A stretch of DNA of 40,189 nucleotides from a virus, in IMG/VR virus record IMGVR_UViG_3300030108_001459, positions 1-40,189 of that record, one strand, 5' to 3'. Both the position numbers and the translations under genes were made by a program. Below the pieces are notes generated by a model. That model ran no database searches, was not told where the DNA came from, and was given only the letters and a program-made list of their open reading frames with translations. Positions within the stretch are counted from its first letter, which is position 1. Each line of letters begins with the position of its first letter. Shown here piece by piece: positions 1 through 40,189 of the stretch.

Positions 1-3000
1 ATTCTAGTAATTCTCTATATAGTTCTTGTTTTTTTGCATCATTCCATTTACCCATAGCTTTAAAAGTAGTGGTAAATCCATCAAAACCATGTTTATAGAA
101 ATTAAGATGAAGATTTCTAATAGAATATCCTATATTAGCCCTAAAGTTATTCGCCTGTGTAGCAAAAGAAAATACTGTTTTAAATAACTTAAACAAACCT
201 AAACTATAAAAATAACCATTAAAAGCATGAAGAACTGCTTTGTGAACTCCTTGAGTACCTGCTGTAGCAACTTGACCTGGTGTTGTTTTTCCTAACATAG
301 CGTCAGCAGCAGCCTTTACTGTTCTAAAAGTTTTCATTTCACCATCAACCATTAGCTGTATATCTATTAAGTCGTTATTAGTGAATCCCATGTCTCTTAA
401 TTCTTTAGGAAATGGTTTAGATGGGTCAAATAAAAGTTTGTCTTGATACATTTCTACTAAAAAGTTTTGATACCTAGAGCCTTCCAATAAATTAATTTGT
501 TTTGTTACAGTAGTTAAAATATTAAGGAAAGGATTGTCAACTTCACCTAAAATATCTCTTATTATTTTTGGTAATTGTTCTTCTGTTTTTCTTCCTTTTA
601 AATATTTTGCTATTTGTGGACCAACTTTATTTAATATCATAATAGGAGACTCCCCATCAACAGGATTTAGTATCTCGCCTATTATCTCATCAACTTCATA
701 TTCTGGCACGTCTTCAGGTTTAGAAATTTTTCTTTTTGATTTCTCAGAATCAGACATAGAGTCAAATATTTGTTTTCTAAAAAATTGTTTGGCACTATTG
801 TATAGTTTGTGATTTCTTTTTATTAAATCTAAATCTTGAAATTCTTTTCCAAATACTTTTTCTGATAGAAATTTTAACGCACCTGCAGCAAAGCCAGTAG
901 GTTCTTTTTGTTGATGAGCTTTATAAGATCTAGTTAAATATATACCCTTATTTTCAGAGTAAAATACAGATAACTCATCACTTAATAAGCCAGAATCTAT
1001 TAACATTTGACTTAAATTGTCTATGTATGCTCTAATCTCTTTTATTTTTTCTTTCACATCATCTGGCATAGAATCAAGCTTTCTTTTGTTTTTGTGTCCT
1101 TCATAAAGGTTTCTTAACTGCTCTTCTTTTAATTTTAAAGTCTTTTCTAGTTTTTTGTATTTTACTGACTTTTCTTTAAAGACATCTAATGATTTTATTT
1201 CTTCTTTTATTAATCTTATACTTCTTTTGATTGTTTTGGCCCCTTTACTATTAGTAGGATCTGTTAAAACATCATTAACATTTTCCATTGTTATATCAGG
1301 ATATTTTTTTAAAACTTTTTGAAGCTCTTTTACTAAATACTCTCCTTTATCTATGTATGATTTTTGCCTACCTTTAGTTAAAGCTCTAAGTTCTTTTACA
1401 GCACCAGATCCAATACCACCTACAACAAACCAATCTTTAATAGTATTTAAATTGAATCCAAACTTTTTTCCTATTATTCCAAATCTTGTTTGAGTTTGAC
1501 TATCTAGTATATCTCTACCAGCAGCTTGAAACTTAGGGTTGTTAATTTTAGTGGTATTTTCAATCATACCATTGGATACCACAACCTGAGGTACAGATTC
1601 TCCATCTAGCTCTGTTATTCCAATATCAGAATTAGGGTCTATAGATTGCGTAGCCTCTTCCAACACATCAATAGACGATTCATTAGTTATTACATTACTA
1701 CTAAAAACTACTCTAGGTACGTCACTATCTACAGCATACTTAATTATGTTTTTGAAAACAGTTTCTAAACTACCAAAGTCAACACCATCAAAGTTCTCCA
1801 CAACCATTGTTCTAGGTCCTGACTCGTCAATAGAGTCATCCATTCTAAACTTAACTTTTCCTAGATCCATAATAGGATTTTTAAGGCTAAGTTCATTTTC
1901 TTTTGTAGCGTCAACACTTACCTTGTTCATATTAATGTAGTCTTTGACAGCTTGAATAGGAATTAGTTGATCGTCATAATTTAATTTTAGTCCTTCTAAG
2001 TAGTTTTCTAAACCACTAAATGTTAATTCTAAATTAGTCAATGGAGTAGAATGTATATCTATTTGTTTCAGTATCTCTTGTTTTGTGGATCTATCTGTTT
2101 GAATAGAGTTCACAGCTTGCTCTAAATTATTTAACTGCACCTCTGTACCTGCTTGAAATTTAGGATCTGTGCCTTCTATTTGTCCTGGATCTAATTCTTG
2201 GCCCCTAGCTAAACTTGTAGAAAAAACTTCTGTAAACTCACCTAAGTCAGACACCTCCTCCATAGTTTTAGAGTAAGCATCAAAATCTGAATCTACATTT
2301 ACACCAAATAAACCTAGTATTCTTCTCCATATACCTTTAGACCAGCTATTATCTTTTTCATAAACTTCTAAAGCAGAGTCACCAAGGTATTCTGCTAAAG
2401 CTTCTGTTAACTGCTCGTCTTTTGATAAATTAGGATAACTTCTTTCAGCCCAGTCTATGTAAGTTCCATTGTCTTTGTCTGCACCTATATTTCTTTTTGA
2501 TAAAAACTCTTTAGCTTCTTGTAATATTTTTTTTGCATCGTTAGCCTTATCACCCTTTTGTTTAGCTAGGTTTTGTAAAACACTAACAAATGGATGTGCA
2601 CCCTCATGAAACATTGTATTTAAACTAGCTGTTTCTAAATTAAAGTGTATAGTTCCATTTTTTTCATAAATAAAACCTCTAGTGTTTTTTACATTTAGAG
2701 CATACTGGTGACTAGCTCCATTTAAAATAAAGTGTTCGTATACTGAGTTACTATCACTATGCACCACAACATCAAACCCTATAGAGGACATAACATTATG
2801 AGCTATCTTTAATATCTTTGACTTTCTTCTGTTTGGTTCTTTTTTGGACATATCAAGAAGAGTTTGCTGACCCTTCTTTACTCTTTTTCCTGGTGTTAAA
2901 GCTTTCCCTCTAGCTTTTCTTGAATCAGTAACCTCTTTAGTTACTGCTTTTTGAAACTTTCCTTCTAACTCTTGTAGTGTGTCCAATTCATCTTGAGCCT

Positions 3001-6000
3001 CTGCTATAATGTTATCTATCTCATTCATGGATATAGAAGCAACATCAATAGAGTTCATTATTTGAGATATTAATTGATTAGCTGCTACATCAAGAGATAT
3101 GTCTTTATCAGTTATTAATTCAACTCCAGATATTTTACTTGCTTCATTTCTAAATGTGCTTAAATTTATTTCACCATTAGCATATTGTCCAGATAGTTTG
3201 TTAAGTTGTTTTCTTATTCTGTTTAGTTTTCTTTTATCAGAGAAGGTGTCATTATCAACAGTTAATACTCCACCTACATTATTTCCTGCCCCTCTAACTA
3301 CCTCTAATACTCTTTTTTCTTTTCCTCTGTTAACTACTAATTTATCTCCATCTATAGATACCACAACAGGGTCTATGCCCACCCCTACTGTCTTAAGCAT
3401 CTTTCTATTTGTTGCGTTGTCTATTTTATATCTTCTGCCACCAGATTCTATTGCATATTGACCATTTTTATTTAAGACCAATTTACCATTTCTACCTCCA
3501 TATTTTATTGTTCTACCAAGAGCATCTTTAAATGTTGATGTATCATCTATAGAGATTTCTTCTGTGGCTGATAAGTTTCCAAAATTTTCTGTAATACCTT
3601 TACTTTTAAGTCTTTCGACAAGCTGTTCAATTTTAGCTCTAAGTCCAGGGGAAGTTTTTTGGATTGCAAGTTTGGTTGTTTCTGTGATTTCTTCATTTAT
3701 ATCAGGTTTTACTTTTTTAACTTTTTTTAATAATGATCTATACGTTGCTAGTATCTTTTTATCTTCAGGTGTTGGTTTTTTTTTGTTGTTTAAAGAATCT
3801 ATATCTGACTCTAATTCTTGTTCTATTGCTCCTTTAGTTGACCTACTAAACTTACCACCTGTTCTAAATAGTCTTTCTGCAAGTTTACCTGCGTAAGATA
3901 CTTTACTACTATCTATGCCTAGTTTATCAAAAGAACTTTCTTTATAAAATATTGAGTCTACACTTTCTCCATTTAACAATCTAGAAACCTGATTGTCTAT
4001 TTGCTCCATTTCTTGCTTAAATTTAGGACCAAATTTTTTATCATTTTGAAAAGCCTCTACGTTATTTCTTCTATTTATTAAGGATAATAATATAGCTTCA
4101 CTTTCATTATTTAACTTAACTCCTGGCTGGGACTTTAATGAATTAACTTGTTCAAACAATCTATTTAACTTTTGCTTTCTACTATTAATAAAAGACTTAG
4201 TTAACTTTACTCTTTTACCATTAATATTAATAGTTTCACCAACCATTTTATCTAAAGACTGAAATACATTATCTTTATACTTATAAGCTTTGTGTAAAGA
4301 TGCTACCTGCATAGAGCTAGTTGTAGGTCTTGATGATATAGAAGCAACAGAACCAATAACAAAACCAGCTATAGCAGCATCTCTTGCTTGATCATAGTTT
4401 AGTTTTTCAAAGTCAGTCCCTTTATATTGATTGTAAACTTGACCCACTAAAGACTGAAGATTTTCATCAACTAGTTCCTGACCTGCCTCTTTAAACCCCT
4501 CTATTAACATATGTTTACTAGTTGCTGTTAAAGTGTTTTGCTTAGATGCGTTTCCAAGTATCATAGATAGCATAGCAGTGTTTGTTTTACCTTTAGCCAT
4601 TTTAGATGTAGCTCCAAGTATTCCAAGGTTAGGTGATATATAAGCATTAGATAACCCAAAAAGTACACTCATTAAGGTTGCATAAGAAGAAGACTCCCTA
4701 TCAGTCATTCCTTGTTCTTTAGCCATATTGTATAAGTTTCCACTATGATTGACCCACATAGAAGTACCCATAGCAACTTTTCTCCAGGTATTAGCACTAC
4801 CTGCTGCAACTTTACCTAATCCAACTGCTGAACCAACTCCAAAGGTACCATAGGTTAAAGCTACATCACCAGCAAATGTGGTTACAGCATCTGTTAACAT
4901 ATTAAATCCTGCAGTGTAATTTGTTTCTTTTTTTATTTCATATTCATCTTTATTGTCTGTGTATTTTTTTAATAACTCTTGATTTTTATCATAGTCTGTT
5001 CTAATCATAAAGCCATCTTCATCTTCATAATAGGTTTCCATAGGCTCTCCATTTCTGTCTACCATTACCTTAAATCCATTACCCATATCAACAGTATATT
5101 GACTAAAACCCCCAGCACCTTTTTGATTTAAACTATCGTCTCCAAAAACTCTATTAAGTCCATCATTAAATAAATCGTTAGCACCATCACTAAGTGCGTC
5201 AAGTTCATTGTATTCATTTCTTAAAAACCCATCTAATAATCTAGGAAAATCAAAAGCAACACTTTTTCCTAATTTTGCCAAACCCTCAATAGCAGTATCA
5301 CCAAGCCAAGAAAGAGCTTTCCCAACACCATTTTTATCTCTATATTTTTCATCTGCTTCTTTTTTTGCGTTTCTTTTCCATCTTTCGTGCTCCTCCAAAA
5401 GACCTCTTTGTTCGTTTAAAGCTAAAGCATGGTTTGTTAAAATATCTTGTGTTTTATTTATGCCATCAAAAGTGTTAAACTCAGGGTACTTTTTCTTTAA
5501 ATCTTCCCCTTCCTGTTCTAATTCTTTTTTTATTTTGTTTATTTCGTTAAACCTTTCTAAAAGTTTTTGATCTTCTTCATACTCTTCTTTATCAAAATAA
5601 ATATAACCTTGAGGCTTTTCTATTTTATTCTTTATAATAATTTGTTCATCTGTTAGTGATCCAACCTCGTCTATTAAGTCATTAAATTCTTTTAATCCTC
5701 CATTTTTTTCTAATTGAGACGTTACCCTTTCTGTAACTTTTCTTAACTGTCCTGCAGACCAAATAGAAAAAGCAGTTTGTCTTCTTTCTTGTAACTCAAG
5801 CCATTTTATTATTTCTGCAGGGTTAGTGTTTTTTTTATTATAAACTTTTTCTCCATATTTTTTATCTAAAAATTGTAATCTTTTATAATCTTCAGATGTA
5901 AAATTATTATCAAAACCACTAAAATTATATAGTTGCCAATAAAGTTTTAATGTTTCATCATTATTAATCATTTTTATTGCATCTATTTGCTCTGATAATC

Positions 6001-7873
6001 TACCTTCATATTCAATTTTTTCTTCCCCTAAAAGATCATCTAATATAGTCCTTGGATTAACAGATATACCTTTTAAGTCTGAAGCCTCATTAGTTAACAA
6101 ACTTGTTAAACCCTCTCCCTCTGTGTAACCATCATAGTCTAATATGTCCATGCTTAACAATTCACCTGGAGTATCTGTTGTAAATGGAGCATCATTATAA
6201 GCTGTGTTCATAGCATTTAAAAACAAACCTATCTCTCCTTTAGAGTCTTTATTAAATTCTGAAAGATCTTTCATTTCTCCACCTTTACTTAAAAAAGTAG
6301 CTTGATTAGATAATATCCATTGAGTAAGAGCATCTCTTTCCCCAGAGGGAGAAGAAACTAATTCGTTTAATTGAGATTCTAAAACAAATATTTCTTCTTT
6401 TATTTTTGCATGTTCCTCTGATTCTTTTTCAAATACTGGCATACCAATACCAAACTCGTCTTTAAAAGAACTTATTTGCCTTGGTCTAGTTTCATCAGCT
6501 TCAGATCTTTTTTGCTGAATTTTTTTATTTAATTCTCTTATGGTATTTTGCTTTGTTTTACTAGAGGAGACAAATTCACCAAGAATAGGATCTACAACTT
6601 TGTAAGTTTTCTCCCCATTTTCATCAACATCATAAGTTAAGTAAACGTCTCTACCACCAACTAAAGCTTCACCATCTGATCCCAATAGTTCTTTTACAGG
6701 AAACTTATGCACAAGTCTTTGATTTCCTTCTGCATTGTAAGCTTTCTCTTTTATTTTTTGTATTGTTGTGTTTTTTTCTTCTTCTGTGATTTCAGGATTG
6801 TATAATTTTTGTAGCTCAAAGTCTATAGAATACTCATCAAATATTTCAGGGTTTTCTACTACTTCTTGTGAATTAAATCTACCATAAAGACCTGGGTTGT
6901 CCATACTACCCTCTTCTTCAGGGGTTGTTTCTTCTACTACTTCTTCTATTGAAGCCTCTGCAAAGTCCCCTAAATCAACATCTTCTCCTAAATTTATTTC
7001 TGGTTTTTTATTTATATTTACCTTTGTTTGTACGTAGTCAGTGTTATCTATCTGACCTCTCTTAAAGCTAAAATGTAAGTGATTTAAATTGTGCTGTTTT
7101 TTATACATGTCTCCATACTCGTCATGTATACCATTTTTTAAATTACCTCCAGAACCCCATTTTTTAGCAAGAGCTTGTCCTTTAGGGTCTTCGTATAAAA
7201 AAGTCATTAACTTTTTTCCTGATTCACCTGCTACATCCATAGCTAAACCATGTTTATGTCTAGAGTGAACATTAGATTCAGGTTTTCTACCCTCTCTCTC
7301 AGCTTCGTAAAATCTATGATGTTTTTGATCTCTAAATAAACTAGTTATATCTAAGTTGTTAAAGTCTTCTTCAGGATATATCTCCTGTAACTCAGCTAAG
7401 AACTGAGCAACTTTAGGGTCTACTAATCTTGAGTTAAAATTCTTTTTTTCACTTGGTAGGTTTTTTATCTGTGGAAAAGCTTGAGATATATCAACCATAT
7501 AAGAGGTGTCATCAGGACTTAAATTAGTGGGTAATTTATTGCCATCAGCATCTTTTATTTCAGGAAATATTTGATTTATTACTTCATCCTCTTGTTCTCC
7601 AGAGTCCAAAGACCCATCTTCCACACCTGACGTACCATCTTCCACAACTGAAGAATCGTCTGGTTGTTCTGGCTGGTCTTTTTTTTTTACTTCAGAAAAA
7701 AACTGATTCTGAAACTCTTCGTATGATTTTGTGTATAAACCATCACTAGAAAGCTTTTCGTGTAAAGCTTGTTGACTTGAAGGCTCTGAGAATTGAGTAA
7801 CAAACTCATCAAATGATTTAGTGTATAAACCATCACTTGATAATTTGTCATATAGAGCTTGTAACTTGTCCAT
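1..7873 (-). CDS. Giant polyvalent virion/ejection protein with M15 and HEXXH peptidase signatures (partial, C-terminus beyond left edge)
   Basis: The frame is open from an ATG at 7873 to the window edge, at least 2624 codons with no stop. The N-terminus carries two copies of a 30-residue repeat with identical LSSDGLYTKS cores (residues 11-20 and 41-50), then an acidic linker. Residues 204-213 read SRHKHGLAMD, which fits the SxHxxGxAxD zinc motif of M15 peptidoglycan peptidases, and NHLHFSF (HLH at 265-267) fits the distal His motif. Much of 300-950 is charged helix. Hydrophobic Gly/Ala-rich segments lie near 1000-1025 and 1165-1180 around an EAGQEL motif. HEGAH at 1756-1760 with ExxxE at 1824-1828 gives a gluzincin-like metallopeptidase, like the zincin domains of phage polyvalent proteins. 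A GIYLTRSYK stretch follows nearer the left edge. It lies directly after cargo-type genes, so I infer virion packaging and ejection with the DNA, with M15 opening peptidoglycan. The ORF and motifs are seen; the role is inference. Confidence 0.85.
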   Translation of the reverse strand, partial: MDKLQALYDKLSSDGLYTKSFDEFVTQFSEPSSQQALHEKLSSDGLYTKSYEEFQNQFFSEVKKKDQPEQPDDSSVVEDGTSGVEDGSLDSGEQEDEVINQIFPEIKDADGNKLPTNLSPDDTSYMVDISQAFPQIKNLPSEKKNFNSRLVDPKVAQFLAELQEIYPEEDFNNLDITSLFRDQKHHRFYEAEREGRKPESNVHSRHKHGLAMDVAGESGKKLMTFLYEDPKGQALAKKWGSGGNLKNGIHDEYGDMYKKQHNLNHLHFSFKRGQIDNTDYVQTKVNINKKPEINLGEDVDLGDFAEASIEEVVEETTPEEEGSMDNPGLYGRFNSQEVVENPEIFDEYSIDFELQKLYNPEITEEEKNTTIQKIKEKAYNAEGNQRLVHKFPVKELLGSDGEALVGGRDVYLTYDVDENGEKTYKVVDPILGEFVSSSKTKQNTIRELNKKIQQKRSEADETRPRQISSFKDEFGIGMPVFEKESEEHAKIKEEIFVLESQLNELVSSPSGERDALTQWILSNQATFLSKGGEMKDLSEFNKDSKGEIGLFLNAMNTAYNDAPFTTDTPGELLSMDILDYDGYTEGEGLTSLLTNEASDLKGISVNPRTILDDLLGEEKIEYEGRLSEQIDAIKMINNDETLKLYWQLYNFSGFDNNFTSEDYKRLQFLDKKYGEKVYNKKNTNPAEIIKWLELQERRQTAFSIWSAGQLRKVTERVTSQLEKNGGLKEFNDLIDEVGSLTDEQIIIKNKIEKPQGYIYFDKEEYEEDQKLLERFNEINKIKKELEQEGEDLKKKYPEFNTFDGINKTQDILTNHALALNEQRGLLEEHERWKRNAKKEADEKYRDKNGVGKALSWLGDTAIEGLAKLGKSVAFDFPRLLDGFLRNEYNELDALSDGANDLFNDGLNRVFGDDSLNQKGAGGFSQYTVDMGNGFKVMVDRNGEPMETYYEDEDGFMIRTDYDKNQELLKKYTDNKDEYEIKKETNYTAGFNMLTDAVTTFAGDVALTYGTFGVGSAVGLGKVAAGSANTWRKVAMGTSMWVNHSGNLYNMAKEQGMTDRESSSYATLMSVLFGLSNAYISPNLGILGATSKMAKGKTNTAMLSMILGNASKQNTLTATSKHMLIEGFKEAGQELVDENLQSLVGQVYNQYKGTDFEKLNYDQARDAAIAGFVIGSVASISSRPTTSSMQVASLHKAYKYKDNVFQSLDKMVGETININGKRVKLTKSFINSRKQKLNRLFEQVNSLKSQPGVKLNNESEAILLSLINRRNNVEAFQNDKKFGPKFKQEMEQIDNQVSRLLNGESVDSIFYKESSFDKLGIDSSKVSYAGKLAERLFRTGGKFSRSTKGAIEQELESDIDSLNNKKKPTPEDKKILATYRSLLKKVKKVKPDINEEITETTKLAIQKTSPGLRAKIEQLVERLKSKGITENFGNLSATEEISIDDTSTFKDALGRTIKYGGRNGKLVLNKNGQYAIESGGRRYKIDNATNRKMLKTVGVGIDPVVVSIDGDKLVVNRGKEKRVLEVVRGAGNNVGGVLTVDNDTFSDKRKLNRIRKQLNKLSGQYANGEINLSTFRNEASKISGVELITDKDISLDVAANQLISQIMNSIDVASISMNEIDNIIAEAQDELDTLQELEGKFQKAVTKEVTDSRKARGKALTPGKRVKKGQQTLLDMSKKEPNRRKSKILKIAHNVMSSIGFDVVVHSDSNSVYEHFILNGASHQYALNVKNTRGFIYEKNGTIHFNLETASLNTMFHEGAHPFVSVLQNLAKQKGDKANDAKKILQEAKEFLSKRNIGADKDNGTYIDWAERSYPNLSKDEQLTEALAEYLGDSALEVYEKDNSWSKGIWRRILGLFGVNVDSDFDAYSKTMEEVSDLGEFTEVFSTSLARGQELDPGQIEGTDPKFQAGTEVQLNNLEQAVNSIQTDRSTKQEILKQIDIHSTPLTNLELTFSGLENYLEGLKLNYDDQLIPIQAVKDYINMNKVSVDATKENELSLKNPIMDLGKVKFRMDDSIDESGPRTMVVENFDGVDFGSLETVFKNIIKYAVDSDVPRVVFSSNVITNESSIDVLEEATQSIDPNSDIGITELDGESVPQVVVSNGMIENTTKINNPKFQAAGRDILDSQTQTRFGIIGKKFGFNLNTIKDWFVVGGIGSGAVKELRALTKGRQKSYIDKGEYLVKELQKVLKKYPDITMENVNDVLTDPTNSKGAKTIKRSIRLIKEEIKSLDVFKEKSVKYKKLEKTLKLKEEQLRNLYEGHKNKRKLDSMPDDVKEKIKEIRAYIDNLSQMLIDSGLLSDELSVFYSENKGIYLTRSYKAHQQKEPTGFAAGALKFLSEKVFGKEFQDLDLIKRNHKLYNSAKQFFRKQIFDSMSDSEKSKRKISKPEDVPEYEVDEIIGEILNPVDGESPIMILNKVGPQIAKYLKGRKTEEQLPKIIRDILGEVDNPFLNILTTVTKQINLLEGSRYQNFLVEMYQDKLLFDPSKPFPKELRDMGFTNNDLIDIQLMVDGEMKTFRTVKAAADAMLGKTTPGQVATAGTQGVHKAVLHAFNGYFYSLGLFKLFKTVFSFATQANNFRANIGYSIRNLHLNFYKHGFDGFTTTFKAMGKWNDAKKQELYRELLE
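7701..7843 (-). repeat. Two tandem 30-residue coding repeats at the N-terminus of the giant ORF
   Basis: Within the giant ORF, LSSDGLYTKS occurs at residues 11-20 and again at 41-50, followed by FDEF and YEEF and then a Gln-Phe. The DNA is also similar (AGTGATGGTTTATAC in both). The 30-residue period points to tandem duplication of a short helical module. Confidence 0.75.
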
Positions 7874-7883
7874 TAATTAAAAT

Positions 7884-9596
7884 TTATAAATTATCCAAAA
7901 CACCAATATTACTAGATGTATTAGCACTATTTCTTCGTTTTTCTACTTTATCCAAAGTACTTACTATTGGGAAGTCATCAGCCCCAACTTTTCCTAAAAT
8001 CTTGTTAATAGGTAATACAACTATTGCAGAGCTGCTTTTAGCATCTTTTGGTAACACGTTATTTCTTGATAAATTACCTAACGCTTTATCATCTTGTTTC
8101 CCAGCAACAGAGGGAGTAAGTACACCTATAGCAACTTGAACCCAATCACCTCGAGTTATTCCTAGGTCTTGAAGTTGTTTATCAGACATTTCCTCTTGTT
8201 CTCTATTTAAATAAATTTGTTTTTTAGAACCATCTTGCATCGTTTTTATAGCAGAAAGCTTTATACCAATGGAGTTAACCAAAATATCAAATTCTTTTTT
8301 TCCTGTTGTTTTACCCTCTTCTGTTTGTAAGAAAGATTCTAAATTGTCCATATTATCTGGCATAAAAACATTACTTAAGTTTGAAGTTGTTTTTATCCCA
8401 CTAGTTCTAGTACCAATAGCTAATGGTGAACTTACTATATGATTTTCTGAAATTTCATTAGTTTCAGTATAAAGTCGATTAAATCTTTGTGGATCATTAT
8501 ATATACCTAAGTCTACTTCCTCTGTTTTAGGTGGTTTATATGTATCTCTAGCTATAGTCTGATACTCTGCTTGAGCTCTTTCAAAAGCAAAGTTTTTTAA
8601 CTCATCCATAGATGGTAAATCTGAATTTGGATTTTCTTGCTTCCATTGTCTTAGTATAGCATTACCATCAGATGATAAAATATATGATCCATCAGGGGAG
8701 TAAATACCACCAGGTCCAAGTATCTTATCTTGTATTAATGACTTCATCTCTCTTTCATTTAACTGATTTTTAGGGTTCTCTGCAGTAGCAGTACCATCAA
8801 TAGTTCTAAATATATCTTCATATGATACTGCTTTACTACTATCGTGAGGAACAACATCTTTTAATACACTGTTGCTCCACTCATCTAAATTCATGGTTTT
8901 AACATTTTCTTCGTCAAACTCTTCTCCCTCTACCATTGATGGTTGTGAGTTTTCATCAAACGCATCATCATCCTGTGTTACTTTTTTACCATCAGAATTA
9001 ATAAAAAGAAGTTCTCCATTTTCATTTGCTTCTTGTACTTGCATCTTTTGTCTTTCTTTAATAACAAGATTACCTGTATTAAAATCAATATCAAAAAACA
9101 TACTACCATCTGCCCCAAAAGTTTTCCAAAGATTCTCAACACCCTGCATTAAAGAAACATTTTCTGAATTATTAAACAGATCTTTTGTCTGTGGATTATT
9201 CATTTTATTCAAGTTACTTTTATACTTATTAGATAAATTTGTAGATATAGAGCTAATCTGTTTTGCAGACATTTGAAGGTTAGCATTTATTCTATGTGCT
9301 TGTTTAACTTCTGGTGAAGCATCTGGACTAGTAGGATCTATCTTTAAAAGATCAGCATTAGCTAAAACCCACTGATAAGACTTATCGTTAAGGTTTCTCA
9401 TTTGGTCACTAAAGTATGGATTTTCAACCCCAAATTCAGCTTGATTAAATTCATAATTTTTAACCTTGCTTTGTTCTTGAGCCTTTTCTTCCATCATGGC
9501 CACTTTTCTCTTCTCAAGACCTAGTTGAGCCCACTGTTGAGCTTCTTGTACTAAGTTTCTTTTACCTATAATATCTGATACATCTGCAAAAGGCAT
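7884..9596 (-). CDS. Putative internal virion (cargo/ejection) protein, 570 aa
   Basis: I do not recognise a named family. The first ~130 residues are charged helix (Gln, Lys, Glu), followed by a stretch with many Asn, Ser and Lys residues and mixed alpha/beta sequence. No signal peptide, membrane segment or catalytic motif is visible. It begins 9 bp after the cargo candidate upstream and ends 10 bp before the giant ORF, so all three are likely co-transcribed. In crAss-like phages the genes between the muzzle protein and the giant ORFs encode cargo proteins held in the capsid or tail, and position suggests the same role here. It might instead be a tail component. The coding call is sure; the function rests on context. 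Confidence 0.8.
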   Translation of the reverse strand: MPFADVSDIIGKRNLVQEAQQWAQLGLEKRKVAMMEEKAQEQSKVKNYEFNQAEFGVENPYFSDQMRNLNDKSYQWVLANADLLKIDPTSPDASPEVKQAHRINANLQMSAKQISSISTNLSNKYKSNLNKMNNPQTKDLFNNSENVSLMQGVENLWKTFGADGSMFFDIDFNTGNLVIKERQKMQVQEANENGELLFINSDGKKVTQDDDAFDENSQPSMVEGEEFDEENVKTMNLDEWSNSVLKDVVPHDSSKAVSYEDIFRTIDGTATAENPKNQLNEREMKSLIQDKILGPGGIYSPDGSYILSSDGNAILRQWKQENPNSDLPSMDELKNFAFERAQAEYQTIARDTYKPPKTEEVDLGIYNDPQRFNRLYTETNEISENHIVSSPLAIGTRTSGIKTTSNLSNVFMPDNMDNLESFLQTEEGKTTGKKEFDILVNSIGIKLSAIKTMQDGSKKQIYLNREQEEMSDKQLQDLGITRGDWVQVAIGVLTPSVAGKQDDKALGNLSRNNVLPKDAKSSSAIVVLPINKILGKVGADDFPIVSTLDKVEKRRNSANTSSNIGVLDNL

Positions 9597-9605
9597 ATAA
9601 AAATT

Positions 9606-10592
9606 TTAACTAATTATTGAACTTCTTTTTTTAAATCTTGGTAGTCTAGGTTTGTGAACAGCACCATGTCTAGCTTTTGCTTCTTCTTTATTGTTTTCTT
9701 CAGCTTCCTTATCCCATTTTGTTAAAAGTCTATCCATTAGTGATACTAACTCATCACCATCTTTTTCTCTTATCAAGTCTCTTATTTGCTTTACATTTTT
9801 TGGAGGAACTATAGCTTCTCCACCAGTCATCTCTCCTATTTTTTCCCCTTTTCCATTTCCATCTCTTTGAACTAAATCTATTGGGTTTTTTTCGTGAGAA
9901 AACTCTCCTGGTGTTACTTCAGGCTCTTCTGCTGGAACTTGCATTTTTCTTTTCTTCATTCTTTCTTTTAATCCTTTCTTAACAACAGCACCTTTTCTAC
10001 CAAACATACCACCTGTAGCTAGACCAATACCAGCATCTATTCCACCATATATTTGTTGCCTAGCAGCTTCAGCACTTTGTTGAGCATTCATAACATCTGT
10101 TCTACCTTCTAATCTTTCTGTCTCTGCTTGTGCTATATCTGCTGTACTTCTTGCTTCTTGTATTCTTCTAAGGTCTGTTCTTTCAGTTTGTGCAGCCTGT
10201 AACCCAGCTCTTTGAGCAGAAGCTTGGTCTGTAGCTAATTGACCTTCAGCTTGAGAACCAGCTTGAGCAGCAGCAAATGGGTCTACTCTACTTCCACCTC
10301 TGGTAGCAGCAGCAGTAGCACCTGCTCTCATTCTTTCAGCAGCTTCTTGTCTTCTTTGTATTTCATCACCACCTAAGCCTTCTTTTAATTTCTCTGTTTC
10401 TGGAGATAAAGAAAGAGTTTGTCTTTTTGCTTTCTCAGCTTCTCTTTGGGCAGCAGCAGCAGCCATAGCCTCTCTAGCTTTAGCCTCACCTTCCTTAGCT
10501 CTCTTTTTAGCACCAAATCCTGCTATTATTCCTCCAATAAAGTAACTTGGTCCTCTTAATCCTTTTAATAACTTTTTTTTCTTTTTAGCCAT
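9606..10592 (-). CDS. Putative internal virion/ejection protein, Ala/Gln-rich helical, 328 aa
   Basis: The protein opens with a run of lysines and a Gly-rich hydrophobic patch (residues 14-28, GPSYFIGGIIAGFG). A long Ala/Gln/Glu/Arg helical region follows to about residue 175, then a second Gly-rich patch (about 180-198), a basic stretch and a charged C-terminal domain containing TGGEAIVPP. Long Ala/Gln helices with short glycine-rich hydrophobic stretches are typical of podovirus ejection proteins such as T7 gp14-like or P22 gp7/gp16-like proteins, though I see no direct homology. It is the first gene after the muzzle protein. TATATTTG lies at 10607-10600, 7 bp before the ATG, and may be an internal promoter. 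The coding call is sure; the ejection role is inferred from composition and position. Confidence 0.8.
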   Translation of the reverse strand: MAKKKKKLLKGLRGPSYFIGGIIAGFGAKKRAKEGEAKAREAMAAAAAQREAEKAKRQTLSLSPETEKLKEGLGGDEIQRRQEAAERMRAGATAAATRGGSRVDPFAAAQAGSQAEGQLATDQASAQRAGLQAAQTERTDLRRIQEARSTADIAQAETERLEGRTDVMNAQQSAEAARQQIYGGIDAGIGLATGGMFGRKGAVVKKGLKERMKKRKMQVPAEEPEVTPGEFSHEKNPIDLVQRDGNGKGEKIGEMTGGEAIVPPKNVKQIRDLIREKDGDELVSLMDRLLTKWDKEAEENNKEEAKARHGAVHKPRLPRFKKRSSIIS

Positions 10593-10618: not shown

Positions 10619-13600
10619 CTATTTATTACTTAATTCACTCTTGTTTACGTTTGCGTTGGTAGCAAATATGTGAATTTTATCTTTTGTTCTTTTAGTTAGC
10701 TCTGTATCCATGAAATGACCTTTTAATCTATCACCCTCTATTCTAGAGTTTTTCTTTACAAACATAAATGTATTTGCAAGAGAAGCTGTAGCGTTTGAAG
10801 CTAAAACTATATCATCATCATCAGTAATAGAACTTATTACCCCAATAAGAGTTTCTGTGCCATTATTATCATAAAATATAGAGTCACCAATATTTACTCC
10901 AGCAGTGGTAAAAGATGTATTAGTTGCTGTACCACTACCATCTGCTAAAGTATTACCTTTTAGGGTTGTGGCAGAATTACTTGTGGAACATTTTCCTAAA
11001 CCAAAATACTCGCCACCAACAGAGCTAGTTTCTCCATATGGTATTTTAGCACTACCAACATCTTCTCTCATAACCCACGAACCTGCAACTTGAGAATTAC
11101 CAGACTGAGAATCATTATTATATGATGTTCTATGTGTTAGTGTAGTAGAGTTTAGATTAGTTGTCATTTTAGTTTTGTATAACGTGTCCTTTGCAGTTAT
11201 AATAAAAGCACCATACAGAGCAGCATTTGTTGAAGTAGCATTAGCAGTAAGGGTTATAGATGTATCACTAGCAACTACACTTACTGTACCTAGTTGTGTT
11301 GCAACACCTGAAGCGTTATAAAAATTAATAGTATCACCAACCTCTATATCGTTATCTGTAAAGGTTGTTCCTGTTCCTGTAACTGTAGTAGAACTTGAGT
11401 TGGTTGTTATAAAACTACCTTTTATTGGGATTACCTCTGGTCTGTCTATACCCTCTATAGAAATATTGTTCCATCCTTTTACACTAGAAGCCTCACCATT
11501 AAAAGTAAAACTTAACCTTGTTTCTTCTGGATAAGGATTTTCGTGAAACATACAATGATTTGTAGCATCAGCATCATGTCTGTATATATTACCAAACTTA
11601 AAACTAACAAAAGTTCTTTGTATGCTAGAATAGTATTCTGGGTAAAATGTATAAAAGCTAGTCCACCTGTTTGCTTTTTCATTAAATGCTAAAGTCACTC
11701 CACTAGCCTCTTGTTCTCTACCATTGTCTATAACTATAACAACTTTATCTTCATCATAAACTTCATCTTTTTCTTCATCTTTTACTGGTATTTTATCAAA
11801 TTCATAAGCAGTGCTTCCATCTTGAAGTGTTGAGGCTGCATTAAAATTTACAGCAGCTCTAGAAAATTGATTTCTAGCTATGTTTGTAATACCTGTGTTT
11901 GTACTGTAAATACTAGGAAATGTTAATACGTATTCACCATGCCTAGGGTCAAATCCTCCAACTATTTTAAGTTCACCACCTAACCTGTCAGGATTTACTA
12001 TGGCTTGATATTGATCCATTTTATCTCTAAAAAAGTCCACCATTTTATATTCAGATACAGCAGTAAGTCCATCATTAGCATATCTTAATACAGCACCCCT
12101 TTTTATGTCCATAAAATAGAATGACTTACCATGAACTGCCACTGACTCAGGATTAGTACAAACCCCATATTCTCCAGTAGCAGGTCTAGCAGTTTCAGAT
12201 AATACATTTTTAGATAATCCTATGCCAGTATCGCCACCTGGTGTTGTTATAATATCTTTGTTTACTAACACAGTGCTAACTTTATCTTCTTGAAGTAAAA
12301 TTAAATCTGTATCTCTAGATATAAGTTTTTGTATTGAGCCTTTAGATATATCATAATCAATGTATGGTCTTTGACTAAAAGCAAAAGAATGAAAGCCATT
12401 AAATTGTGTATCTACCTGAAATACATCAGAATAAGTTACTGATGCAATTCTTTTTAATTCTGTTGCATATTCAGAGCTTAAATTAGGTCTACCTATATTT
12501 ATGTGATTTGTATTTAAAAAGTCATTTAAGAAATAACTTTCATAGTACCCAGTTATAAATGTTGCATTACCAGTTTCATCAACACTTCTTGTTACTCTTG
12601 GTTTATACCAAATATCACCTCTAATAAACTTACCTGATGCAGGTAATCCACCAGCGTTATATGTTGTTTCTACTCCATCACCATCAGCAGTATAAACATT
12701 TGATTGGTCTCCACCATTACCCATATGTGCTCTCTGATCTGTTCCTGGGTCAGATATATTAAACTTTTCAGAGAACTCATAATATAAACTCTCATCTTCA
12801 TTAAGGTTCTTTTTTGGTCTGTATATTTCTATTATACAACCTGTCCAAGCGTTAACTTTACCTGTTGTTTGGTCAGCATCAGCTACACTAAATCCACCAC
12901 CTATGGCTGGTTCGTCTAAAATAATAAACTTACCAAGCTCTGCTGTTTCAGGATCATTTGCAGAACCACCAACTGGAGAGTCAGGAGAAAGTTTTACTTT
13001 AGAACTTATACCATCTACTTCGTTTGAATTGGTGTCATCAGTGTCAAATACTAATTCGCCTGGATACCTGCCTATCTCACTAATTTTAAAATCGTAATAT
13101 TCTGGTTGACCAGTGCTAGGGTTTTGCATAGTAACAGCAGTTCCACTAGAGTCTATTTGTGTAATTATTCTCATTCTATCTCCCTCTGCAAAACTCCAAT
13201 CTCCAACAAGAGACCTGTTTCTCTGACTATAACTCCATATTCTTCCATCCATTGTATTCATAGATATATAAAGTTTAGTGTCAGCTTGAGAGTCTGCTGC
13301 AGAAGTTCCTGGTTTAGCCCCTTTGTTTATAAATGCTTTATCTATAGTAAACTGCATAAACTTACCAACTGAGGTATTTCTAGCATACATCCACTGATAG
13401 CTATGAGCCCATATAGGTGGTTTGTGCCATATTCTCCACCCTATATCTACTGGGTATAATTTTTGTGACTCTGTTAGTGCATTGTTAGTTATCCCATTAT
13501 TGTTATAGACTTGAGGTAAAAATGTTTCGTTTATTCTTTCTGGTGGGAACTTAACATAAGTAGATGACGACCTTGTAGGGAAAGATTTAGAAGGCTCTTG

Positions 13601-16408
13601 TAACATAACTGTTGAGTTTCTACCTTCCTTGTCATAATATACTAATCCAAACCTGTGCCATGCACCAGATTTAAAAGAACTAACATTTGCTGACCATGTT
13701 TGCATTTGAGTAAATGACATATTAGTATCACTAAATTCTGACCATGGATTGTTGCCACCAGCTACTGTACTCAAAGTTGAATCATCTCTAAGGCCTTCAT
13801 TTGAATTTTCTTGAAAAATAGTTTGGATTCTACCAAATTCACATTTTCTATTACCATCCATACAACCATTACCAGCATCATCTTCACTGCTACCAAGAGC
13901 TAAACATTCAGTAAAATCTGCGTAAGCATTACCATTAAATCCATTAGAAACTCTCCAAACGTGTAGATTAGTAACTTTTTGACCATTTAATAATTGATAA
14001 TCAGTTGGTGTTTCTGCACCATCAGTAAAGCCAACACAGCCCCAATTATAATTCTCATCATGTTGAGGATTATAATCAGCACTAGCTCCTCCACTACCTG
14101 TGTAATGCTCACAAGTACCAATTTCAGCTCCATCTTCAGTAACTCTCTGTCCTTGTGGGACTAAATGAATAAGCAACACACTTGTATCATTAGGGTCTTG
14201 CTCTGCCTTAACTCTCATTTCTGCAGCAGCTTGCAAACCACTATTAAGATATGTTTGAGGGGTGTCTAGTGTACCATCCTCTGTTAAATAATGATGCTTT
14301 ATAGCTTGACCAAAGTTTGGGTTATAATCTTCAGCTTCTGGGTCATCACTTTGACCACTATCATCTAAGGTTGTTTGAGCTTGAATACCATTAATGTACT
14401 CAACAAAATTATCAACTACTCCATCTATACCATCTGCAGCTACTGTAAAACTTTTTTCAATTTGTGCTCCAAACATATCATACTTGTAATAAGACCAAGA
14501 ATTTGACCAATTTGCAACTGGCCATCTTGCTATAGCATCATTACCAAGACTGACTTCAAGACCAAAAATAGTAATTGAACCTGGGTCGTAAAAATATTTA
14601 AATTGTACTCCATAATTAAATTTTAAGTTAATTTTTTGACCAGGGGTTGTTACTGTAGGTAGTTTATATTTTAATGTAATCTTAACTGCATCAGCGTTAT
14701 AACATATGGCATCATTTCCACCAACAGAAGCATTATCATAGGTTATATTAACTTGTGGAGGTTCACCATAATTTTCCTCACTAAACTCATTTACATTATC
14801 TGGGTCAGCATTAATTATTTCTTCTCCACCAAAAGATATACCATCAGAGAAAGATTGACCAGAAGGGTCTATAATAACCAACCCTGGGTCTGCTCCATAT
14901 AGTGGTATTAAATCAAAATGAATAGGTACTTGGTCAAAACCATCAGTATAATTACCATAAGCTATTCTGTTGTCACTTATTATTTCTTGTGCTTTTGCTC
15001 TCTTAGGAACCCTATCATATAGCTTACTAAATTGAACTGGGTCTACTTGAGTGTAAACACCATCATTCCTAAAATCAAAAAACCCTAATGGGCTATCACT
15101 ATAAACTACAGAAGAGCCATCAGCAGCCATACTTTGTATATAAGGAACATTATTTGACGTAACAGCATAGACACCACTTACAGGGTGCTGCATATTTACA
15201 ACTGTAGGTGCTGAAAAATTAGAATCATAATAATTATTATCAACAGTTGCTATTAAATAATATTCTCCTTGATTTCCTTTGTCTGGTGCTGTTTTTGCAT
15301 ACTGACATTTTCTAGCAGCTATCTCTATATGTTTAACATCACCTGGTCCATTATGATACCATATTCTTAATTCATTGTATAAGTTTTGTTTATCTTTGTC
15401 TTCTGCGTTTTGATAATATTGTGGTAATGGTGTCACAGCACTCCACTCTGACCAAGAGCTAAATTCATTATCTCTATAAACATATCTGTAAGCAAACTGC
15501 CAAATGAATCCATAAATATTATTTTTTTTGTAAGCTAAATCTAGACCACTTGTAGCATTAACAACATCAAAAGAAATATTATGACTAGCTACCTCACCAG
15601 GAGCAAATGCTTTTGAGTCACCATCTATGTCATTAACATTTATAGTTGCACTAGTATTATTAGTAAGTGGAGTTTGTGGAAAATAAACAGGAGCATGCTT
15701 AGGTCTTCTTTTATGGACATTTATATATGCTCTTTTTCTCCAACTATCTACATCTTCATTTCCATCAACAGCACTAGTAAAAAACTCAAAAGGATAAGAT
15801 GTTTCTAAAGGAAAATCAGTTCTAGGATTTACTGAATAATTATTTCCATCATAATAAGTATTAAATCCTGTTTTAGCTTTTTCTACATTTATAAATTTTG
15901 GTTCATTAAACTCTGTTCTATCTTTATGAACAAACTCTTTACCTGAAGATTTTACATATGTATTGTCACAAGTCCAGTATAGTAAATCATCAATTCTATT
16001 TACACCTGTTATTAAGGTGTCTTTATCAAATCTAAGTAAATTGTCTTGAGTTCCTGTATCTCTGTATACAGTAGATATTGTGTCAGTCTTTATATTATAT
16101 TCTAGAATCATATGAAAAAACAACTCACTAAATACAAAGTAGTATATACTATTGTTAGGCTCATCTTCATATGCACCTATAACCCTGTATTCTGAACCAT
16201 TTCCACCAAAGCTACCTTCTTTACTTCCAAATACCCTAGTATAATTTTCTTTAATCATACCCCTAAGATTTTCTACTAATTGACTATTTCTATCTTCTGA
16301 AGATGTTATTCTAACATTTTGTGCATAAAAATAATCCCCATTAGGTACTACTCTGGAATCATCGTCTCTATTTAATCCACCTATAAAATTTCTTTTATCT
16401 TGTGCCAT
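10619..16408 (-). CDS. Large tail 'muzzle'/stabilisation-type protein, 1929 aa
   Basis: The N-terminus (NFIGGLNRDDDSRVVPNGDY) matches the 'GGLNxDxDxRxxPxGxYxxAxN' start seen in tail stabilisation/muzzle proteins of crAss-like phages, which form the distal part of the short tail. The protein is almost entirely beta-rich, with many Gly, Asn, Asp, Ser and Thr residues. A more conserved core near residues 1370-1460 includes DKVSTVLVN, TGIGLS, FYFMDIKRG and a YKMVDFFRDK segment. Near the C-terminus, two related beta modules (about 1660-1735 and 1805-1885) each contain (V/I)GD(T/S)I followed by a Gly-Val/Thr-Val turn and a Thr/Ala-rich strand. It lies 5 bp after the P22 gp4-like adaptor and before the cargo genes, the same order as in crAss-like virions. 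The family call is by motif and size. Confidence 0.8.
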   Translation of the reverse strand: MAQDKRNFIGGLNRDDDSRVVPNGDYFYAQNVRITSSEDRNSQLVENLRGMIKENYTRVFGSKEGSFGGNGSEYRVIGAYEDEPNNSIYYFVFSELFFHMILEYNIKTDTISTVYRDTGTQDNLLRFDKDTLITGVNRIDDLLYWTCDNTYVKSSGKEFVHKDRTEFNEPKFINVEKAKTGFNTYYDGNNYSVNPRTDFPLETSYPFEFFTSAVDGNEDVDSWRKRAYINVHKRRPKHAPVYFPQTPLTNNTSATINVNDIDGDSKAFAPGEVASHNISFDVVNATSGLDLAYKKNNIYGFIWQFAYRYVYRDNEFSSWSEWSAVTPLPQYYQNAEDKDKQNLYNELRIWYHNGPGDVKHIEIAARKCQYAKTAPDKGNQGEYYLIATVDNNYYDSNFSAPTVVNMQHPVSGVYAVTSNNVPYIQSMAADGSSVVYSDSPLGFFDFRNDGVYTQVDPVQFSKLYDRVPKRAKAQEIISDNRIAYGNYTDGFDQVPIHFDLIPLYGADPGLVIIDPSGQSFSDGISFGGEEIINADPDNVNEFSEENYGEPPQVNITYDNASVGGNDAICYNADAVKITLKYKLPTVTTPGQKINLKFNYGVQFKYFYDPGSITIFGLEVSLGNDAIARWPVANWSNSWSYYKYDMFGAQIEKSFTVAADGIDGVVDNFVEYINGIQAQTTLDDSGQSDDPEAEDYNPNFGQAIKHHYLTEDGTLDTPQTYLNSGLQAAAEMRVKAEQDPNDTSVLLIHLVPQGQRVTEDGAEIGTCEHYTGSGGASADYNPQHDENYNWGCVGFTDGAETPTDYQLLNGQKVTNLHVWRVSNGFNGNAYADFTECLALGSSEDDAGNGCMDGNRKCEFGRIQTIFQENSNEGLRDDSTLSTVAGGNNPWSEFSDTNMSFTQMQTWSANVSSFKSGAWHRFGLVYYDKEGRNSTVMLQEPSKSFPTRSSSTYVKFPPERINETFLPQVYNNNGITNNALTESQKLYPVDIGWRIWHKPPIWAHSYQWMYARNTSVGKFMQFTIDKAFINKGAKPGTSAADSQADTKLYISMNTMDGRIWSYSQRNRSLVGDWSFAEGDRMRIITQIDSSGTAVTMQNPSTGQPEYYDFKISEIGRYPGELVFDTDDTNSNEVDGISSKVKLSPDSPVGGSANDPETAELGKFIILDEPAIGGGFSVADADQTTGKVNAWTGCIIEIYRPKKNLNEDESLYYEFSEKFNISDPGTDQRAHMGNGGDQSNVYTADGDGVETTYNAGGLPASGKFIRGDIWYKPRVTRSVDETGNATFITGYYESYFLNDFLNTNHINIGRPNLSSEYATELKRIASVTYSDVFQVDTQFNGFHSFAFSQRPYIDYDISKGSIQKLISRDTDLILLQEDKVSTVLVNKDIITTPGGDTGIGLSKNVLSETARPATGEYGVCTNPESVAVHGKSFYFMDIKRGAVLRYANDGLTAVSEYKMVDFFRDKMDQYQAIVNPDRLGGELKIVGGFDPRHGEYVLTFPSIYSTNTGITNIARNQFSRAAVNFNAASTLQDGSTAYEFDKIPVKDEEKDEVYDEDKVVIVIDNGREQEASGVTLAFNEKANRWTSFYTFYPEYYSSIQRTFVSFKFGNIYRHDADATNHCMFHENPYPEETRLSFTFNGEASSVKGWNNISIEGIDRPEVIPIKGSFITTNSSSTTVTGTGTTFTDNDIEVGDTINFYNASGVATQLGTVSVVASDTSITLTANATSTNAALYGAFIITAKDTLYKTKMTTNLNSTTLTHRTSYNNDSQSGNSQVAGSWVMREDVGSAKIPYGETSSVGGEYFGLGKCSTSNSATTLKGNTLADGSGTATNTSFTTAGVNIGDSIFYDNNGTETLIGVISSITDDDDIVLASNATASLANTFMFVKKNSRIEGDRLKGHFMDTELTKRTKDKIHIFATNANVNKSELSNK

Positions 16409-36715: not shown

Positions 36716-37204
36716 ATGGCTAAGAAATATAGTACAGTTACAGTAACGCCAACAATAGCAGCAACAAGTTTTGACGACAATGATGTTATAGGAGATTTCA
36801 CAAGGCTACCACTACCTGTTAGGGATGGTGAATCTTGTTTATTAAAAAGTATAACTGTTATTGATACAGAACATACTGGGGCTAATCTTGATATTATTTT
36901 TGTTAAAAATACAGATGGAGACACTGAGCTTGGTACAAATGATGGTGCTGTTGATATTAGTACTGCTAATTTAAAAACAAATACCCTACTTGGGCATGTA
37001 AGCATTACAGTGCCAGGAACAGACCTTATAACATGTGAGGTTGGAACAACTACAGATATAAATTTAGTTCTTACATCTTCTAATCAAGATTCTACAGATG
37101 GAGTTCAAACAGGGTGTTTTTTTGGTATTATAGCTAGAGATGCTTCTGATGCCTCAGGTAATGCTAATCATTTGACGTTTACATTTGGATTTGAAATAAA
37201 CTAA
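36716..37204 (+). CDS. Small beta-rich virion protein, 162 aa
   Basis: The protein is beta-rich, with strands such as STVTVTPTIAATSF, KSITVIDTEHTGANLDIIFV and LLGHVSITVPG, and ends in HLTFTFGFEIN. It has no signal peptide or membrane segment. It is the first gene of the plus-strand fibre cassette and its stop lies 11 bp before the fibre ATG. The order (small beta protein beside a fibre) mirrors the 156-aa gene beside the minus-strand fibre. It may be a fibre-base, decoration or collar part. Unknown family. Confidence 0.7.
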   Translation: MAKKYSTVTVTPTIAATSFDDNDVIGDFTRLPLPVRDGESCLLKSITVIDTEHTGANLDIIFVKNTDGDTELGTNDGAVDISTANLKTNTLLGHVSITVPGTDLITCEVGTTTDINLVLTSSNQDSTDGVQTGCFFGIIARDASDASGNANHLTFTFGFEIN

Positions 37205-37215
37205 AACCTTAGCAT

Positions 37216-39396: not shown

Positions 39397-39406
39397 ATAT
39401 AAAATT

Positions 39407-39787
39407 ATGGCATTAACAAATAAAAAATATTCAGCAGTACACAACAAAACAGGAAGTGATAAAGCAAAACTTAAAACTAACTTTGATGATGGTCACATAA
39501 ACACTTTTGTTGATTTAGCAGATAATGGAACCAACCCTGAATTTGGTGCATTAATATATCAAATACAGGAAATGCAAGATGAATTAGATTATCTTAGAAC
39601 AGAAATAGCTCTTAATAAAGCTAAAACACCCATAGCAACTGGTGCTAATACAGTGGTGTCATTTGGAGATATGGTTTCTACTACAGTAAAAGGTAAAACA
39701 ACTTATAGTATAGTAATGACTGTAGTTTTTACTGACCCTGTTAGTAGTAAAGTAACAACTAAAACAACAACACTAACATTAGCTTAA
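39407..39787 (+). CDS. Small fibre-associated protein with coiled coil and beta tail, 126 aa
   Basis: A helical/coiled-coil segment (GALIYQIQEMQDELDYLRTE, about residues 47-66) follows a basic N-terminus, and the C-terminal half is beta-rich (TVVSFGDMVSTTVKG, then KTTYSIVMTVVF, then KTTTLTLA). A coiled coil with a beta end suggests a trimeric fibre part or connector. The start is 10 bp after the fibre stop, so it belongs to the same plus-strand unit. Family unknown. Confidence 0.7.
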   Translation: MALTNKKYSAVHNKTGSDKAKLKTNFDDGHINTFVDLADNGTNPEFGALIYQIQEMQDELDYLRTEIALNKAKTPIATGANTVVSFGDMVSTTVKGKTTYSIVMTVVFTDPVSSKVTTKTTTLTLA

Positions 39788-39803
39788 ATAAATATATATT
39801 TTG

Positions 39804-39811
39804 TATATTTA
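39804..39811 (+). promoter_or_regulatory. Candidate plus-strand -7 box before the secreted protein
   Basis: TATATTTA (followed by ACC) lies 18 nt before the ATG at 39830. It shares TATATTTAAC with the box at 36671. The repeat of this string at the two plus-strand unit starts is the main support. Confidence 0.3.
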
Positions 39812-39829
39812 ACCTTAAAATAAATAATA

Positions 39830-40189
39830 ATGAAAAAGTTAATTTTACTCTTATGCTTAATAAGCATTTGTGCCAACGCACAAATTAAAAATTTTTTTAA
39901 ATACTCTACATTCTATGCTTCTGCATCTATGAGCTCTCCATTTGTCGAAAGAAATGACTATATTGCAGTAGATAAAGGTTATCAAGATGTTACAAGAATA
40001 CACGACTATGACTACAATGTAACATTTGGCCTTAGAAAAATAGCAAGATTTGATTATGAATATAAAGTTAAAACGTGGTATTATGGTACTGAAAGAGCTG
40101 TTGCAGACAACGTGCTTATTGGTAACGCTGTTGGTTGGGAGTATCTTCTTAATTACTCTTTTATACGCAGTCGTGGTGAGTCATTTACT
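39830..40189 (+). CDS. Secreted protein, possible outer-membrane beta-barrel type (partial, cut at right edge)
   Basis: A reading frame opens at ATG 39830 and stays open for 120 codons to the window end. It has a signal peptide (MKKLILLLCLISICANA, likely cut before Gln18), then a region of alternating aromatic and polar residues (FFKYSTFYASASMSS, DYDYNVTFGLRKIARFDYEY, KTWYYGTERAV) typical of outer-membrane barrels. It is preceded by a TATATTTA box at 39804-39811 and by the fibre cassette. A phage-encoded envelope protein could act in host binding or in superinfection exclusion; I infer only that it is exported. Confidence 0.6.
   Translation, partial: MKKLILLLCLISICANAQIKNFFKYSTFYASASMSSPFVERNDYIAVDKGYQDVTRIHDYDYNVTFGLRKIARFDYEYKVKTWYYGTERAVADNVLIGNAVGWEYLLNYSFIRSRGESFT

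Follow-up and report, generated by a model that had tools for sequence, protein, structure and literature searches.

Iyer et al. 2017 (PMC5512222) described the polyvalent proteins of phages, of which ART-PolyVal and LPD domains are hallmarks, and proposed that zincin domains process these proteins themselves and that DD-peptidase domains breach the cell wall. Other described systems close to the present locus are the N4 virion RNA polymerase gp50 (PMC12633501), an ejected protein of about 3,500 aa in which a large helical C-terminal portion comes after an HExxH zincin-like domain; crAss001 gp47, a virion cargo protein (PMC10172136) encoded in the slot after the muzzle and two cargo genes, with HEAFH and E..AE and no DxDGD; and the Pachyviridae giant encoded by gp122 and gp123 of phi18:3, of which gp123 was annotated from MS/MS. 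Transcriptional slippage within a long ORF, with near stops in both shifted frames, is known from dnaX of Thermus thermophilus, where it yields a truncated product (PMC5009743).

In this study, we analyzed a giant gene in a 40,189-base IMG/VR virus record (the whole stretch is hereafter called the window) and compared it with these systems. First, its product resembled the polyvalent proteins in being a giant multidomain chain with a zincin hub, an occasional DD-peptidase and proposed virion delivery, but it carried no curated LPD or ART domain, and its leader, A10 tract and repeated boundary motif were not found described in the cited sections of PMC5512222. Second, the general layout was that of N4 gp50, except that the window giant had no RNA polymerase domain. 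Third, crAss001 gp47 was alike in its slot and in the motifs named above, but had no detectable profile homology, and neither a run of A>=9 nor a tandem leader was seen in it. The Pachyviridae giant shared the leader, the A-tract, the C-terminal module and the gene order, whereas it had neither an M15 nor an HExxH signature and an A9 run set its leader and giant in separate frames. Finally, dnaX offered a parallel in its long ORF and near stops; it is another gene, and slippage in the giant is read from sequence comparison.

Genomic context of the giant gene

The features of this part of the window are as follows.

1..7873, minus strand: giant gene for a putative polyvalent virion-cargo protein, 5' 2,624 codons (3,199 aa complete in L002), based on the ORF, the twin contig and dN/dS
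7884..9596, minus strand: 570-aa gene, by position the counterpart of phi18:3 gp121 (MS/MS) and the giant's neighbour in sister phages
9606..10592, minus strand: 328-aa gene between the muzzle protein and the 570-aa gene, from the ORF list
10619..16408, minus strand: muzzle protein (crAss_MUZ, 62 bits, cut-off 27)

An earlier note on this DNA had claimed an uninterrupted frame to the window edge, and the minus-strand frame from 7873 to 2 was indeed open for 2,624 aa with zero stops. A protein search revealed an IMG/VR contig 98% identical to the window (L002) whose giant was also unbroken; following the frame leftward to its stop, which the same note had proposed, was possible in this twin, where the giant ends at 3,199 aa (L002:10001-19600), and thus about 575 aa lie left of the window. 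A remoter copy of the giant's second half was present in L003 (best segment 85% identical). Codon changes between the window and L002 (dN 0.012, dS 0.063) showed that the giant is a real gene under constraint. Searches of the whole giant against Pfam, PHROG and PDB sequences gave nothing informative, and hhalign of whole giants gave unusable alignments. The Gly/Ala-rich segments that had been described as hydrophobic were so only mildly: a Kyte-Doolittle scan (19 residues, >=1.3) marked a single segment, which falls beyond the window edge at residues 2793-2811 of the full-length giant.

Read leftward, beginning in the window's right part, the genes were GroES-like, terminase, portal, one for a probable major capsid protein, several other structural genes, and then muzzle, 328 aa, 570 aa and giant. 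The muzzle protein, a Crassvirales trait, was present with crAss_MUZ over its cut-off. The closest cultured relatives were the Flavobacterium elemo phages and the Cellulophaga phages of Pervagoviridae and Pachyviridae, none of which is listed under Crassvirales (Pachyviridae according to NCBI taxonomy), and the closest complete genome was ctfjg026. All of these had the identical gene order and a giant in the equivalent slot (1,691 aa in phi38:1, 1,935 aa in phi18:3, annotated from MS/MS, 3,694 aa in elemoA and 3,859 aa in ctfjg026), and a giant was also found there in the IMG/VR TerL-sister contigs long enough to reach the slot. The window phage, a podovirus related to crassviruses, probably infects Flavobacteriia. 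Past a strand switch, the plus strand of the window (36716-40189) carries genes of 162 and 726 aa and others, which had no Pfam or PHROG match over threshold; the 726-aa gene contains a DIDGD string, for which a link to RNA polymerase is improbable.

No DxDGD had been noticed in the visible part of the giant, and the whole 3,199 aa, missing part included, contained none either. A few DxDxD strings occur (1856 and 3035 of the complete giant), but they are not kept as a motif in sister giants. A virion RNA polymerase in the giant's slot was therefore rejected. The suggestion that this phage places a different giant where crAss-like phages hold their RNA polymerase did not survive in that form, because a giant of this kind is regularly found in the slot in this clade and crAss001 gp47, which occupies it, has HEAFH without DxDGD. 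Moreover, absence of an RNA polymerase is not unique: Yutin et al. 2021 (PMC7886860) report that crAss-like phages of the epsilon group are likewise without the transcription block. With regard to crAss001 gp47 itself (L169:8120-15145), which is annotated as an RNA polymerase subunit, the HEAFH and E..AE near its C-terminus and the lack of DxDGD suggest that it could be a cargo protein with a zincin domain. No profile homology was detectable between crAss001 gp45-gp50 and the giants, and gp47 is taken as a positional parallel only.

Candidate zinc peptidase domains

Two distinct zinc-peptidase signatures had been claimed for this one protein, and their positions proved exact to the residue.

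2294..2836, minus strand: predicted zincin metallopeptidase domain, residues about 1680-1860 (alignment A5; AlphaFold2 core)
2594..2608, minus strand: HEGAH motif, residues 1756-1760
2390..2404, minus strand: EALAE, residues 1824-1828, candidate third zinc ligand (alignment and motif)
7004..7486, minus strand: M15-type peptidase region, residues 130-290 (SxHxxGxAxD and HxH; VanY match below cut-off)
7235..7264, minus strand: SRHKHGLAMD motif, residues 204-213
7073..7081, minus strand: HLH motif, residues 265-267

The zincin signature was strongly supported. The pattern NTxFHExxHP...EAxAE was invariant in all 18 aligned relatives (alignment A5), and a profile of the zincin region found 23 loci, 21 of them besides the twin and L003. 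Complete giants among these loci had 2,408-3,878 aa, one more was open at 4,058 aa, and the L144 locus had FYEIIH instead of HExxH. Composition alone would give 0.03-0.05 HExxH in the window giant, and the motif was present in 10 of the 15 long TerL-sister and reference giants (expected, at most 0.05 per protein). In the elemo phages it reads HEIFH. AlphaFold2 placed helix, strand, strands, HExxH helix and Glu helix in the expected order (pLDDT about 65-88 in the core, 56 overall), so the element order fits a zincin. Nevertheless, Foldseek on this model gave nothing significant (the N4 virion RNA polymerase ranked third by E-value, 0.53, and first by probability, 0.28), and the zincin profile against PDB matched a single chain, non-significantly.

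For the M15 signature, the support came from the motifs. SxHxxGxAxD and HxH were both present with all metal-ligand positions filled, and VanY (PF02557) was the best Pfam match of the excised region, at 18.7 bits (E=0.0015), under the cut-off of 25. AlphaFold2 of the domain alone from a single sequence gave a poor fold (pLDDT 52), for which Foldseek returned zero structural matches. Relatives of the region were sought in IMG/VR, the phage collection and the sister genomes, and only the twin L002 was found; the domain is limited to these two phages and absent in all other giants examined. The sub-threshold profile match, the fold unsupported by the model and this narrow distribution would all suit an inactive relic or a chance motif. 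We nevertheless regard such a relic as unlikely, because the full metal-ligand set is kept, the window and L002 differ in this region by 5 synonymous and 0 nonsynonymous codon changes, and the SxHxxGxAxD pattern, which occurs six times in 390,790 ORF residues of these phages, is found apart from the giant and its twin only in 4 short stand-alone ORFs of M15-endolysin size. Residues 130-290 are thus a probable M15 peptidase domain, judged by their motifs. Directly after the giant lies a 205-aa endolysin-like gene (L002:19607-20224; phrog_3000, phrog_33083), and therefore lysis is probably not the task of the M15 signature in the giant. Opening of the wall by the M15 part during entry, as the earlier note inferred, is plausible and agrees with the DD-peptidase proposal of Iyer et al. 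2017 (PMC5512222).

Relationship to polyvalent proteins and packaging

Several unrelated enzymatic signatures in one huge chain are a trait of polyvalent proteins, and the giant combined M15 (by motif) and zincin within 3,199 aa. None of the curated polyvalent domains (ART-PolyVal, LPD) was matched in the window giant. In sister giants, ART-PolyVal and LPD23 were found over the cut-off, and DUF3293 preceded the zincin immediately in 12 of 14 (over the cut-off in some). Since its sisters bear the hallmark domains, the window giant is, as far as sequence relationships tell, a new phage polyvalent protein, and one whose pair of domains is unusual.

2..1345, minus strand: start of the conserved C-terminal module (KTV..T..NF.AN), which runs past the window; homologous to phi18:3 gp123, Y3, HTVC027P, 023Pt and sister giants

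The GenBank note on phi18:3 gp123 states that MS/MS detected this protein in virions. Homology to this protein lends support to the earlier claim that the giant is packaged, a support that consists of the virion presence of a homologue and concerns the C-terminal module.

A recurrent motif at domain borders

A short motif, [ILVPSTGM][RK]F[QS], recurred in the giants. Its form [ILVP][RK]FQ was observed 26 times, compared with 4.5 in shuffles; its density was 2.9 per 10,000 aa in giants versus 0.19 in other ORFs (about 15x), counts that include many related sequences and are not independent. Twenty-three of the 35 strict sites lay 120-230 residues past HExxH or just ahead of the C-terminal module, where 3 were expected. 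In L158, which has the variant [RK]FS, sites 1826 and 2039 flank an ART domain (1859-2028); in L162 site 1139 stands ahead of ART at 1146, and in L156 site 2603 adjoins LPD23 at 2607. The window contained two strict sites.

2150..2167, minus strand: DPKFQA, residues 1903-1908, boundary motif just past the zincin domain
1523..1540, minus strand: NPKFQA, residues 2112-2117, boundary motif just ahead of the C-terminal module

Between them, the approximately 205 residues 1909-2111 (nt about 1541-2149) had no recognised domain. Per-protein significance within the window clade alone was marginal (P about 0.05). One of three control patterns, [RK]QF, was also about twofold enriched; thus the bare three-residue enrichment is weak evidence, and what counts is the longer motif together with where it lies. 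No [RK]F[QS] site was present in several sister giants (e.g. L143, L157 and L159), and the motif was absent from the Y3 giant, so universality in polyvalent proteins is not shown.

The simplest reading of these sites is that they are candidates for self-cleavage by the zincin at domain boundaries. Alternatively, the zincin might be injected as an effector to cut host proteins (the earlier note had the second peptidase act on host or phage proteins after ejection), with [RK]F[QS] merely an inherited linker; Iyer et al. 2017 (PMC5512222) admit both roles, and sister giants bear other effector-type domains such as ART. Cutting of host proteins is possible, but the motif stands at non-homologous borders, is scarce in other ORFs and flanks inserted domains, which points rather to self-processing, and we consider the effector alternative rather improbable. 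The motif at domain borders appears to be new: a narrow literature search found a description of neither this motif nor the A tract.

Leader and A10 tract

The N-terminus of the giant showed a further pair of features.

7691..7873, minus strand: N-terminal leader, residues 1-61, two copies of LxxKLSSDGLYTKSxxxFxxQF (leader HMM)
7679..7688, minus strand: A10 tract (T10 on the plus strand), V-KKK-D at codons 62-65, proposed slippage site (sequence comparison)

In the giants, the leader mostly consisted of two copies of a 25-30-residue motif, ended in LKKKD or VKKKD and was followed by a Ser/Gln-rich linker. Among 4,841 ORFs, the leader HMM found only giants (several of them fragments), the leader ORF of an N-split giant and phi18:3 gp122, the small gene just ahead of the giant gp123. 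The split giant, on the minus strand of L103 (IMGVR_UViG_3300037991_005048), is broken by Ns, and its 340-aa leader ORF is intact with LKKKD.

The KKK of the leader was always spelled (G/T)TA AAA AAA AAA G or CAA AAA AAA AAA G, whereas only 61% of Lys codons are AAA and an all-AAA spelling was found for none of the 19 internal KKK. In elemoA, the A10 run lies in a different register and encodes EKKN, which suggests that conservation acts on the DNA and not on the peptide. Of the 29 giants examined whose 5' end was intact and whose frame was unbroken, 26 had A10 or A11, and A>=10 occurred within the first 110 codons in 18 of 21 giants, compared with 2.8 under synonymous-codon shuffling. The tract was absent in G007, G009 and G011 and in the remoter HTVC027P and 023Pt proteins. 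In all four cultured Pachyviridae, an A9 leaves leader and giant out of frame, and one additional A fuses them as LKKKDVSES; this A9 could be a homopolymer sequencing error. Between phi13:2 and phi18:3 (L005:9769-10032 versus L006:9886-10197), the leaders were unrelated and the tract and downstream sequence the same, as if leaders had been exchanged at the tract between phages.

We also scanned the DNA of 2.9 million contigs for the tract. A frame-blind IMG/VR scan for the A10 form gave 18 matches, 17 of which lay at codon 36-71 of an ORF. A second scan for any AAA/AAG spelling gave 49 matches (27 A10 and 22 other spellings); a leader was fitted by 23 of the 27 A10 matches (24 including one cut by the contig end), whereas of the 22 other spellings a single one was classed as fitting, and this one does not resemble a leader. 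Most scan matches run off the fetched stretch, so that their proteins are read only in part, and several come from close relatives. At least seven unrelated leader types were seen, of which the MEDQDLL type stands on a giant that also has HExxH (HEIFH). The A10/A9 tract is kept at the DNA level at the end of several unrelated, mostly tandem-repeat leaders (window 7679-7688; L006:9886-16016; L005, L167 and L168; L170-L219), and together the two may form a separate, new element.

Past the tract, both shifted frames stop within about 9-57 codons, and the alternative frames did not clearly point to a second product that is conserved. The run thus has the length of a slippage site (at least about 9 A), conservation at the DNA level and stops in both shifted frames, and programmed slippage is the likeliest interpretation of the A10 tract. 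A_AAA_AAG is a classic -1 slippery heptamer, and runs of A9/A10 have the length associated with transcriptional slippage. The tract might act at the ribosome instead, by a programmed -1/+1 frameshift or by pausing on AAA-AAA-AAA: phages with A9 have A_AAA_AAG, and fusion there requires a -1 shift. Sequence alone cannot separate this from transcriptional slippage, but the A9/A10 length and the parallel with Thermus dnaX (PMC5009743) led us to see ribosomal action as the less probable course, with some chance of being right. A phase-variation site, at which replication slippage toggles the giant between virions, would account for the natural occurrence of both A9 and A10 states; however, all four A9 records come from a single context and sequenced in-frame giants have exactly A10, or A11 where the preceding codon ends in AA, which makes such toggling very unlikely.

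Proposed mechanism and biological meaning

With transcriptional slippage as the preferred reading of the tract, the observations can be assembled into one account. RNA polymerase would slip on A10, so that the leader is made both alone and fused to the giant, as the conserved DNA suggests. The free leader might, as a guess, serve docking or packaging control. The giant, a homologue of which was seen in virions, would ride in the particle and leave through portal and muzzle before the DNA; its N-terminal M15 domain would cut peptidoglycan peptides during entry, and the zincin would act mainly on the giant itself at the [RK]F[QS] borders, whereby effector and C-terminal modules would part. We hold this account as a whole, from cargo protein to a leader made in two ways, to be fairly probable. 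More tentatively, and short of probable, a general device of Bacteroidetes phages might join a short leader (usually two tandem copies, of several unrelated sequence types) to a giant via A10/A9, with slippage setting the ratio of free leader to fusion and the zincin then cutting itself at [RK]F[QS]; this could provide, for example, free docking peptide together with packaged giant at a low dose.

Both the conserved candidate cleavage sites and the putative slippage tract would be simple to test on existing phages, such as Cellulophaga phi18:3 and phi38:1 and the Flavobacterium elemo phages. These results bear on how crassvirus-like and N4-like phages may dose, package, eject and divide their giant cargo proteins.
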